Source: Marivirga harenae
Lineage (GTDB): Bacteria > Bacteroidota > Bacteroidia > Cytophagales > Cyclobacteriaceae
Length of the DNA: 64,000 nucleotides
Reading direction: 5' to 3'
Assembly (NCBI RefSeq): GCF_030534335.1
Contig: NZ_CP130565.1
Coordinates: forward strand, 703,501 to 767,500
Shown: positions 26,609-28,152 of the stretch, piece after piece
Layout: each line of letters starts with the position of its first letter
Position numbering within the stretch: the stretch's first letter is position 1
The notes under the pieces: model-generated
Told to the model about the DNA's origin: nothing
Databases searched by the model: none
What the model saw: only the letters and a program-made list of their open reading frames with translations
Position numbers and translations under genes: made by a program

Positions 26609-26872
26609 ATGCATATTGCAACAGTGGAAAAAATTAGCGTTATCGATAAATTCACCCAAACAATTGAATTAAGTGGAGCCTCTGCTCGCGAGTGGAAAAT
26701 TGGTATTGCGTCTCTTGAGAGAGCATCGCTTCTAGGAGTAAAAGAAGAAATTTATTATCAAAAGTGTCCAATAGAAGAAGCCAAAGAAATAGTGTTCCAT
26801 TTTATAGCTCAGGGAGTTCAGACTTGCAATATGAGCAAGGCAAACTTTAATGGGATTTACCTATATCGGTAA
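26609..26872 (+). CDS. Orphan 87-aa hypothetical protein next to the tRNA-like array
   Basis: Not recognised as any family. The 87-residue ORF has a plausible soluble composition with no signal peptide or membrane helix: a beta-like start (MHIATVEKISVIDKFTQTIE), then EWKIGIASLERASLLGVKEE and a helix (PIEEAKEIVFHFIAQGV). Two cysteines lie at positions about 52 and 72. Its stop is at 26872, only 4 bp before the 3' end of the first tRNA-like unit, which is on the opposite strand. The last codons take part in an ATTTACC/GGTAAAT inverted repeat (26855-26874). No clear promoter box. It may be a real small gene or chance. Confidence 0.5.
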   Translation: MHIATVEKISVIDKFTQTIELSGASAREWKIGIASLERASLLGVKEEIYYQKCPIEEAKEIVFHFIAQGVQTCNMSKANFNGIYLYR

Positions 26873-26876
26873 ATAG

Positions 26877-27027
26877 CTGTAAGGGGAGGATTCGAACCTC
26901 CAAGGAGCAGTTAGGCTACAGTTCCCACGATAAACTGCCATGCAAATTATCATGAAAGTCCTGCGCTTTATCCCAAACCTCCACCCCCGAGACAGGAGGG
27001 CATGTTTGCCAATTCCATCACCTTACA
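26877..27027 (-). ncRNA. tRNA-like RNA with giant variable region, copy 1
   Basis: Read on the minus strand from 27027. The 5' acceptor TGTAAGG (27027-27021) pairs perfectly with CCTTACA (26884-26878) and is followed by unpaired G (26877), with no encoded CCA. TG then leads into a 3-bp D stem ATG/CAT with loop GAATTGGCAAA, like leucine tRNAs. The anticodon-arm position has CCCTC-CTGTCTC-GGGGG. An 82-nt extra region follows, then the canonical T arm GGAGG-TTCGAAT-CCTCC. In this copy the extra-region stem holds a U-G pair (CATGATAA/TTATCGTG) where the other copies have C-G. Whether it is charged or used in translation is unknown. Confidence 0.8.
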
Positions 27028-27043
27028 AAGTAAATGAAAACTT

Positions 27044-27076
27044 AAAAAGCCCCTTATCTCGTGACTTAGGGCTCTT
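27044..27076 (-). terminator. Hairpin plus T run in the spacer between tRNA-like copies 2 and 1
   Basis: On the minus strand AGCCC (27073-27069) pairs with GGGCT (27052-27048), with a long loop, followed by TTTTT. It is terminator-like, but lies between tandem copies, so it may instead be a processing signal. The matching element in the other spacer keeps pairing with a G-U. Confidence 0.4.
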
Positions 27077-27123
27077 CAATTATCCATTATTTCAATCTTT
27101 ACAAACCTTTTGTTCGCTTTTAG

Positions 27124-27274
27124 CTGTAAGGGGAGGATTCGAACCTCCAAGGAGCAGTTAGGCTGCAGTTCCCACGATAAACTGCCATGCAAATTATCGT
27201 GAAAGTCCTGAGCTTTATCCCAAACCTCCACCCCCGAGACAGAAGGGCATGCTTGCCAATTCCATCACCTTACA
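27124..27274 (-). ncRNA. tRNA-like RNA with giant variable region, copy 2
   Basis: Same architecture and length (151 nt) as copy 1: acceptor TGTAAGG (27274-27268) with CCTTACA (27131-27125), D arm, anticodon-arm-like hairpin, 82-nt extra region, T arm. Differences from copy 1 are five bases. One changes the anticodon stem to CCCTT/GGGGG, still pairable through U-G; another is in the D loop. The loop CTGTCTC, with U33 and a GUC triplet at 34-36, is unchanged. Confidence 0.8.
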
Positions 27275-27290
27275 AAGTAAATGAAAACTT

Positions 27291-27323
27291 AAAAAACCCC
27301 TTATCTCGTGACTTAGGGCTCTT
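27291..27323 (-). terminator. Hairpin plus T run in the spacer between tRNA-like copies 3 and 2
   Basis: Equivalent to 27044-27076 shifted by 247 bp. One stem base differs (AGCCC/GGGTT, pairing through G-U), and the T tract is TTTTTT. Confidence 0.35.
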
Positions 27324-27370
27324 CAATTATCCATTATTTCAATCTTTACAAACCTTTTGTTCGCTTTTAG

Positions 27371-27521
27371 CTGTAAGGGGAGGATTCGAACCTCCAAGGA
27401 GCAGTTAGGCTGCAGTTCCCACGATAAACTGCCATGCAAATTATCGTGAAAGTCCTGAGCTTTATCCCAATTCTCCACCCCCGAGACAGGAGGGCATGTT
27501 TGCCAATTCCATCACCTTACA
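27371..27521 (-). ncRNA. tRNA-like RNA with giant variable region, copy 3 (promoter-proximal)
   Basis: This copy would be transcribed first. Acceptor TGTAAGG (27521-27515) pairs with CCTTACA (27378-27372). The extra region (RNA positions 45-126) can fold into a closing helix GGAG/CTCC (46-49 with 121-124) and TTGGG/CCTAA (52-56 with 113-117), a small AAAG/CTTT hairpin (59-62 with 70-73), and an 8-bp hairpin CACGATAA/TTATCGTG (74-81 with 95-102). The putative GUC triplet is at 27487-27485. A GUC anticodon would read Asp codons, but the D arm and long extra arm are Leu/Ser-like, and base 37 is U, which is unusual. Confidence 0.8.
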
Positions 27522-27561: not shown

Positions 27562-27569
27562 CAAAGGTA
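27562..27569 (-). promoter_or_regulatory. Bacteroidota -7 box (TACCTTTG) upstream of the tRNA-like array
   Basis: Minus-strand TACCTTTG is an exact TAnnTTTG match, placed 41 bp before the first mature 5' end (27521). That leaves a leader of about 34 nt, similar to the tRNA-Ser gene in this window. At the -33 distance (19 bp) there is TGT rather than TTG. Confidence 0.55.
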
Positions 27570-27681: not shown

Positions 27682-28152
27682 ATGCAAAATTATCAACTTG
27701 ATAATACCGATTTAGCCATATTAAATATTCTTATGCAGGATGCACGAAGACCATTCACAGAAGTGGCCGAAGAAGTCTTTGTTTCTCCTGGAACTGTCCA
27801 CGTCAGAATGCGAAAAATGGAAAAACTAGGGTTGATTAAGAATTCTCAACTACAAGTGGACTTATCTAAACTAGGCTTAGATGTGACAGCTTTCCTAGGT
27901 GTATACCTTCAGAAAAGCTCTTTATACGATGATGTAGTGGCAGCGTTAAAAGCAATTCCTGAAATTGTAGATTGTCATTATACCACTGGAGCTTATTCTA
28001 TGTTTGTAAAAATTGTTTGTAGAGACACCAATCACTTAAAAAACATACTACACGACTTCATTCAACCGATAGAAGGAATTGAAAGAACGGAGACTTTTAT
28101 ATCTTTGGAGGAAAGTATAAATAGACAAGTACAATTAAATAGAGCCTATTAG
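27682..28152 (+). CDS. Lrp/AsnC-family transcriptional regulator
   Basis: This 156-aa regulator has an N-terminal winged helix-turn-helix (about 5-55: LDNTDLAILNILMQDARRPF, VSPGTVHVRMRKMEKLGLI) and a C-terminal RAM (ActD-like) ligand-binding domain (about 70-150, with VDCHYTTGAYSMFVKIVC). Such proteins form octamers that wrap DNA and often sense amino acids. The effector and targets cannot be deduced. It is divergent from the tRNA-like array, with 160 bp between, and lies upstream of lgt. Control of either neighbour is possible but unproven. Confidence 0.95.
   Translation: MQNYQLDNTDLAILNILMQDARRPFTEVAEEVFVSPGTVHVRMRKMEKLGLIKNSQLQVDLSKLGLDVTAFLGVYLQKSSLYDDVVAALKAIPEIVDCHYTTGAYSMFVKIVCRDTNHLKNILHDFIQPIEGIERTETFISLEESINRQVQLNRAY

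Follow-up and report, generated by a model that had tools for sequence, protein, structure and literature searches.

The 64,000-nt stretch of the Marivirga harenae genome analysed here (the window; the source genome is a single contig of 4.37 Mb) carries three tandem units of a tRNA-like RNA whose conserved features suggest a tie to aspartate and asparagine, by way of AspRS together with GatCAB and of AsnC. There is good support for the RNA family and its structure as well as for its links to AsnC and gatB, and we lean slightly toward the view that this is a non-decoding tRNA that would serve AspRS and GatCAB as a dedicated substrate for making asparagine under AsnC control. If true, cells would build an amino acid on an RNA devoted to that task and separate from translation, i.e., a modern RNA cofactor would operate in core metabolism. 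Whatever its role, this is an RNA family unmatched in Rfam 15 above cut-off and missed by a tRNA finder run in default mode.

An array of tRNA-like RNAs

The array consists of three minus-strand units of 151 nt each, repeated with an exact period of 247 nt, a layout proposed in an earlier note on this DNA and confirmed both from the sequence and with TRF (2.6 copies, 97% match). Unit 1 (nucleotides 1–73; positions 27371–27521), unit 2 (27124–27274), and unit 3 (26877–27027) score 142.1 bits (E 1.2e-43), 134.9 bits, and 141.8 bits, respectively, with our covariance model R1, whose sole further match within the window is a canonical tRNA-Ser. As previously described, the acceptor stem of each unit has 7 bp and is followed by an unpaired G (G73), the D arm is of the leucine type, the T arm is canonical, and there is an anticodon-arm-like hairpin with a GUC triplet. 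This hairpin is made of a 5-bp stem and the 7-nt loop CUGUCUC (27483–27489, minus strand, in unit 1), which holds the GUC triplet, U37, and C38. A recount also gave the same 82 nt separating this hairpin from the T arm (unit positions 45–126; 27396–27477, minus strand, in unit 1), and this variable region is composed of a base stem GGAG/CUCC, an internal loop GGGAUAAA / CUAAC, and a distal hairpin. One feature absent from the earlier description is a C encoded immediately 3′ of G73 (C74; 27370, minus strand, in unit 1), and the resulting GC 3′ end is found in all 115 distinct members of the family. The fold of unit 1 exceeds chance expectation, being equalled by 4 of 200 shuffles (z -2.37). 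Adjoining the array is an 87-aa ORF (26609–26872) that is conserved in four Marivirga loci and for which no Pfam or NCBIfam family was detected at E 0.001.

With its 7/5 stems, leucine-type D arm, and long variable arm, the RNA resembles tRNA-Leu and other class II tRNAs, from which it differs by having G73 instead of A73, a GUC-type loop with U37, and a variable region that is usually 40–123 nt long and includes a conserved internal loop. It also recalls allo-tRNA and selC*, which are likewise non-canonical class II and, according to passages of PMC7609411, sometimes carry GUC anticodons; however, these have 8/4 or 9/3 stems and a tRNA-Sec-like shape. Allo-tRNA / selC* and tRNA-Sec-like identities were rejected on stem lengths, and a group I intron because neither group I nor any other Rfam intron matched in the window or in five loci of relatives, in agreement with the earlier judgement that tRNA-Sec and group I introns do not fit. 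A tmRNA was also discarded, with 0 genes called by ARAGORN.

A conserved and structured family

A DNA search of related genomes matched 75 out of 98, with matches that were either full-length or in two parts, and 52 members selected from 77 distinct units were aligned with MAFFT (alignment A2). The structure scored on this alignment included the stems of the acceptor, D, anticodon-type, and T arms, the base stem of the variable arm, and one pair, the first, of the distal hairpin. Of its 1300 cells, 99.5% were paired, compared to just 53–63% in slid controls, and double changes were observed at 13 of 25 pairs. The covariation score (0.265 vs 0.134 in shuffles) was not reached in any of 500 shuffles. 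Without a supplied structure, RNAalifold predicted 22 pairs from the family alignment, ten of which show double changes; these make up the acceptor and anticodon-type stems, the base of the variable arm, and the T stem, and the 3-bp D stem and the distal hairpin were not predicted. A cloverleaf with a 7-bp acceptor, an anticodon arm, and a 5-bp T arm is thus recovered by alignment, covariation, and RNAalifold. Homologues with compensatory changes occur across many families, and neither a lack of homologues nor a loss of acceptor and T-arm pairing, both of which the earlier note had named as counting against its reading, was seen in the DNA search, the A2 alignment, or the covariation analysis. 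These compensatory changes, the spread across many families, and the promoter and terminator enrichment presented below leave a negligible probability that the units are functionless repeats of a decayed tRNA-Leu, even with a tRNA-Leu-like D arm and tandem copies in favor of such an origin.

The base stem of the variable arm occurs as GGAG/CUCC, GAAG/CUUC, or GGGG/CCCC, with covarying pairs and 100% of cells paired in A2, and the two sides of the internal loop contain AAA and CUAA, respectively, both invariant in the 52 aligned members. The distal part ranges from 10 to 69 nt and forms a hairpin in most members, and the entire arm measures 40–100 nt in the 52 aligned members and 7–123 nt in 98 model hits. 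Hence, the 82-nt region highlighted in the earlier note as a distinguishing feature is real in the window and represents one value in the wide range of the family. Three of 101 model hits were dropped from the counts of position, AsnC linkage, promoter, terminator, and arm length, namely L149 (a composite match spanning two stretches that resemble tRNA-Leu), the window tRNA-Ser, and a 69-nt partial match (L087:7076-7144; 25.6 bits). The latter has the acceptor ends of the family, is located close to two full copies, and is likely a remnant. A 78-nt member (L148:5838-5915) lacks the long variable arm and keeps the loop CUAUCUC, U1-A72, and G73-C74, and is perhaps a reduced or decaying form; its genome (G071) encodes asnA and lacks GlnRS. 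Array copy number reaches 6 (L090).

No Rfam 15 family matched the units at gathering score, ARAGORN called neither a gene nor a tmRNA in default mode, and five loci of relatives yielded only sub-threshold matches to tRNA (RF00005; best 26.9 bits vs 29). The suggestion of an undescribed RNA family therefore stands, with members that are structured, tRNA-like, unmatched in Rfam 15, and missed by default ARAGORN. Among the matches listed in a search of open-licence literature covering titles and abstract starts, no account of this RNA was found, which is weak support for its absence there. Across 345 genomes of the phylum, 35 had an R1 match at 73.9–142.1 bits (counted by hand, in a scan with stricter filters and eight candidates scored per genome). 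The next-best matches reached at most 62.1 bits, were mostly 84–88 nt long, and were taken for canonical tRNAs. An even draw from the class returned the RNA in 30 of 158 genomes.

Identity elements and decoding marks

All 115 distinct members share U35, C36, C38, G73, and C74 as well as the pairs U1-A72 and G2-C71, and 102 have G34, replaced by A, C, or U in the other 13. According to passages of a 2023 review (PMC9976931), the main determinants of aspartate identity are G73, G34, U35, C36, and C38, with G1-C72 crucial in bacterial tRNA-Asp, and its section 48 gives U1-A72 as the determinant of amidation, and G1-C72 and U20a as antideterminants. The main AspRS determinants are thus found in the RNA (G34 in 102/115, the others in 115/115), and in every member U1-A72, a feature of GatCAB substrates, stands in place of the G1-C72 expected of an AspRS substrate. 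The base following G18-G19-C20 is an A in 52/52 members of A2; we read this base as A20a, in which case the U20a antideterminant would be missing as well. Judged from its sequence, this RNA therefore unites AspRS determinants with the GatCAB determinant.

The tRNAs of the same genome were represented by 29 distinct ARAGORN sequences from 30 loci, excluding an overlapping false call and the window tRNA-Ser (33 Rfam hits genome-wide). All 29 have U33 and a purine at position 37, and U1-A72 is confined among them to tRNA-Asn and tRNA-Gln; the genome also has a normal tRNA-Asp of the G1-C72 kind. Among the 115 members of the family, position 33 is U in 92, C in 9, G in 7, and A in 7, and position 37 is U in 105, C in 8, and G in 2, i.e., a purine in only 2/115 and never A. 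Since position 33 varies and position 37 is never A, we would expect an RNA that is charged and amidated but non-decoding. Decoding by such an RNA would place asparagine at aspartate codons, and the abandonment of U33 and of a purine at 37 would be in keeping with this. A glutamine identity based on U1-A72 and G73 was considered and dropped because the tRNA-Gln of this genome has A73 and the RNA loop is GUC. Of the 29 distinct tRNA genes read from this genome, 28 stop at N73-C74 and do not encode the CA; such a partial 3′ end is unusual.

When introns are allowed, ARAGORN reports units 1 and 3 as tRNA-Asp(gtc) carrying a 60-nt intron, as would be the case for an ordinary, decoding tRNA-Asp that a small intron splits 3′ of its anticodon loop. 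We consider this extremely improbable given that the middle unit is called differently, that no group I intron matches in the window or in five loci of relatives, and that the putative intron overlaps the covarying base stem and the conserved internal loop; in addition, position 33 is not U in 23/115 members, U, C, or G occupies position 37, and a normal tRNA-Asp is present in the genome. A serine-accepting species, either allo-tRNA or tRNA-Sec-like, would be consistent with the class II layout, with the G73 shared with the tRNA-Ser(gct) of this genome, and with a long arm, as SerRS would then read the long variable arm and G73. Passages of PMC7609411 state, however, that SerRS does not read the anticodon, yet U35, C36, and C38 are invariant. 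The stems of 7 and 5 bp and the retention of CUAUCUC and U1-A72 in the L148 member, which has no long arm, further make a serine acceptor very unlikely.

AsnC neighbour, promoter, and terminator

In the window, the array is next to a divergent gene (27682–28152, plus strand) for an AsnC-type regulator of the Lrp family, with E. coli AsnC (2cg4) as the best solved relative (123 bits) and 161 bits to NCBIfam AsnC. An AsnC-like gene was identified within 3 kb of the array in 43 of 60 loci, always divergent (43/43) and at a distance of 108–213 nt, and was missing at 17/60; these 60 loci represent one hand-picked place per genome, and genomes with multiple arrays may have AsnC beside another one. 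NCBIfam AsnC was the best family by a wide margin for all nine neighbour proteins tested (149–182 bits), all of which fall below its equivalog cut-off of 227 bits.

Upstream of unit 1 lies a putative promoter element, TACCTTTG (27562–27569, minus strand), of the TAnnTTTG type, which we take to be the Bacteroidota-type promoter consensus. Of 43 loci, 32 carry this motif in the upstream 90 nt, compared to a mean of 3.2 and a maximum of 9 in 200 rounds of base shuffles. Similarly, at 49 of 60 loci the 150 nt past the last unit contain a hairpin followed by a T run, for a shuffled expectation of 7.9; the window's own array is one of the 11/60 without a terminator by this rule. A scan of the window region yielded 0 terminators (1.0 expected) and 6 sigma-70 promoters (4.9 expected), i.e., not above shuffles.

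Protein clusters near 41 array loci consisted of AsnC, the suf operon (15), a fatty acid-CoA ligase-like group (10), smaller groups, and Marivirga synteny. The suf operon follows the AsnC gene at about 15/41 loci, including L080, L083, and L086, with sufB, sufC, sufD, and sufS identified in L086. It was set aside as a main clue because the RNA-AsnC pair also exists without suf, although it may hint at a link among asparagine, AsnC, and Fe-S assembly. The fatty acid-CoA ligase-like gene, located on the other side of the array at 10/41 loci (two members tested), suggested nothing.

Co-occurrence with gatB and asparagine enzymes

GatCAB presence, judged by gatB, was first tabulated for a chosen set of 80 hand-picked genomes, of which 42 encode the RNA and 38 do not (20 from the same class, 18 from other classes). 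gatB was detected in 42/42 RNA-encoding genomes, in 1/20 genomes of the class without the RNA (G138, which lacks GlnRS), and in 18/18 of those from other classes. In families f23 and f24, gatB and the RNA occur together in 3 and 6 genomes, respectively, and are both missing in 2 and 2. In the even class draw of 158 genomes, which was not author-chosen and shares RNA-encoding genomes with the chosen set, gatB was found in 30/30 genomes with the RNA and 86/128 without (Fisher p 4.5e-5). A one-to-one link in the class, which the hand-picked genomes had suggested (41/41 vs 1/20), was dropped after this draw; these counts show that the RNA implies gatB and that gatB does not imply the RNA.

AsnRS was above cut-off in 78 of the 80 chosen genomes, including all 42 with the RNA, and GlnRS in 32/42 genomes with the RNA, 19/20 without it in the class, and 8/18 from other classes. 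GatCAB is therefore left without an obvious decoding job in those 32 genomes; the other ten lack GlnRS, and GatCAB is needed there for tRNA-Gln anyway. AsnA was detected in 7/42 genomes with the RNA (one slightly below cut-off), 3/20 without it in the class, and 0/18 elsewhere, and E. coli-type AsnB above cut-off in 1/42, 14/20 (15 with G150, at 491 bits vs 499; the copy in G126 has two stops), and 0/18. Within the class, and including G068 and G150, either enzyme is encoded by 7/41 genomes with the RNA vs 16/20 without (p 3e-6), and 31 of the 32 RNA-encoding genomes with both AsnRS and GlnRS have neither, G039 being the exception. Long asn_synth_AEB proteins, which might make asparagine, are above cut-off in 39/42 RNA-encoding genomes, with two in the window's genome and none in G409, G087, and G361.

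The window's genome encodes an AspRS of the bacterial type, which has a GAD domain and reaches 740 bits with aspS_bact; with the non-discriminating model it scores 242, below the cut-off of 368. A His and a Gly near the N-terminus mark bacterial-type non-discriminating AspRS, and these were absent from 14/14 AspRS-like N-termini in 14 genomes. According to passages of PMC4206432, a bacterial-type AspRS can be non-discriminating. If the enzyme is discriminating, tRNA-Asn would not be aspartylated, and the tRNA-like RNA would therefore be a plausible GatCAB substrate. The same passages report, in a survey of 547 genera, 18 genera including some Bacteroidetes with AsnRS, GlnRS, GatCAB, and no asparagine synthetase, 13 of which have one AspRS (PMC4206432).

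Proposed mechanism

The course of events that we infer, from expression and charging through amidation, exclusion from decoding, and release to regulation, is as follows. The units would be genes of a conserved class II tRNA relative that stopped decoding, transcribed from their own promoter beside the AsnC-type regulator and processed like a tRNA, with CA probably added to the G73-C74 end. Ordinary AspRS, reading G34-U35-C36, C38, and G73, would charge the RNA with aspartate, and GatCAB, reading U1-A72, would amidate Asp-RNA to Asn-RNA. In translation, an Asn-carrying GUC anticodon would corrupt aspartate codons; Asn-RNA would be kept out by the relaxed hold on U at position 33, the lack of A at position 37, and the very large variable arm, and would thereby become a carrier for asparagine synthesis. 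Asparagine would then be freed for AsnRS, through hydrolysis or a deacylase, and AsnC would tune transcription of the RNA to asparagine.

This asparagine-carrier reading joins several independent lines, namely the loop and discriminator, U1-A72, the lost decoding marks, gatB, the missing AsnA and E. coli-type AsnB, and AsnC. Against it, gatB is common without the RNA, 8/18 gatB-encoding genomes outside the class that lack the RNA have GlnRS too, G34 is replaced in 13/115 members, the G1-C72 of bacterial tRNA-Asp is missing, asn_synth_AEB proteins are found in 39/42 RNA-encoding genomes, and no AsnC neighbour was seen at 17/60 loci. For the broader claim that an entire Bacteroidota lineage depends for asparagine synthesis on a dedicated non-coding RNA, a tRNA descendant that lost decoding, unites recognition by AspRS and GatCAB, replaces asparagine synthetase as a reusable RNA cofactor, is AsnC-regulated, and is also carried by phages of these hosts, we consider the case evenly balanced. 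If true, the carrier would provide a testable answer to how an Asn-carrying RNA with a GUC anticodon avoids translation, and would explain the Bacteroidetes genera for which passages of PMC4206432 list AsnRS, GlnRS, GatCAB, a single AspRS, and neither asparagine synthetase.

The closest known process would be tRNA-dependent asparagine synthesis, in which, according to passages of PMC4206432, Deinococcus and Thermus pair GatCAB with an additional AspRS that is non-discriminating, and Bdellovibrio has a single non-discriminating AspRS. The two share GatCAB beside AsnRS and GlnRS; asparagine synthetase is often missing in the known pathway (PMC4206432, in the same passages), and AsnA and E. coli-type AsnB are missing from most RNA-encoding genomes, although 39/42 of these have the long asn_synth_AEB proteins. 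An Asp-to-Asn conversion on an RNA with U1-A72 would be common to both. They differ in that the relaxed part of the known pathway is AspRS and its RNA is a normal tRNA-Asn, whereas in the window's genome AspRS is bacterial-type without the non-discriminating residues, and what would set the system apart is an additional RNA with a GUC anticodon that does not decode.

The RNA could instead be a regulatory or scaffold RNA that binds AspRS and/or GatCAB, as a transamidosome scaffold or a sensor of Asp/Asn charging, and does not make asparagine. Linkage to AsnC at 43/60 loci and co-occurrence with gatB speak for such an RNA, and a simple carrier would not seem to require so large a variable arm or its invariant AAA / CUAA internal loop. 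However, the invariant acceptor end with G73-C74 and U1-A72 fits charging and amidation, and several copies per array (up to six) suit an abundant carrier, and we thus view this role as rather doubtful.

Among the roles guessed in the earlier note, an unusual tRNA or aminoacyl donor lies near the evidence, and nothing was found pointing to a peptidoglycan or lipid link. Staphylococcal non-proteinogenic tRNA-Gly is kept out of translation and serves as an aminoacyl donor for the cell wall, and may be analogous in its aminoacyl role outside translation; it differs in amino acid, in having no GatCAB step, and in having no giant variable arm. With this precedent, and with aspartate determinants kept and decoding features gone, the RNA could be a donor of aspartyl instead of asparaginyl groups in a non-ribosomal reaction, for example one that modifies a lipid, the cell wall, or a peptide. 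Yet the amidation determinant U1-A72 replaces the G1-C72 of tRNA-Asp in 115/115 members, gatB is present in 42/42 RNA-encoding genomes, and no aminoacyl-transferase was seen near the 41 array loci, where eight clustered proteins, the AsnC genes, and the window's neighbours were identified; an aspartyl donor is accordingly improbable.

Phage copies

An exact pattern was found in 27 viral contigs (L168–L194), and all 27 score as family members, one copy being cut by the contig end. Of 40 hits in this scoring, 26 viral ones were kept, leaving out the end-cut copy (L182), L148 (counted via the main model hits), L149, and canonical tRNAs. Among proteins from eight of the RNA-bearing viral contigs, 7 of 10 tested match PHROGs, including portal, terminase, helicase, and DNA ligase. 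Phages may bring their own copy of the RNA. No AsnC-like protein was detected at E 1e-5 in the 27 viral stretches. One other exact viral pattern gave 0 matches, plasmids gave no match to the RNA, and a search of phage records returned only one 24-nt T-arm stretch (E 0.5). The RNA is located within or adjoining a tRNA cluster in 4 of 11 viral contigs scanned, and two contigs (L172 and L187) also encode a tmRNA. Phage copies in L172, L175, L180, L187, L190, and L192 have a D-arm insert before GGCAGACAUGCC.
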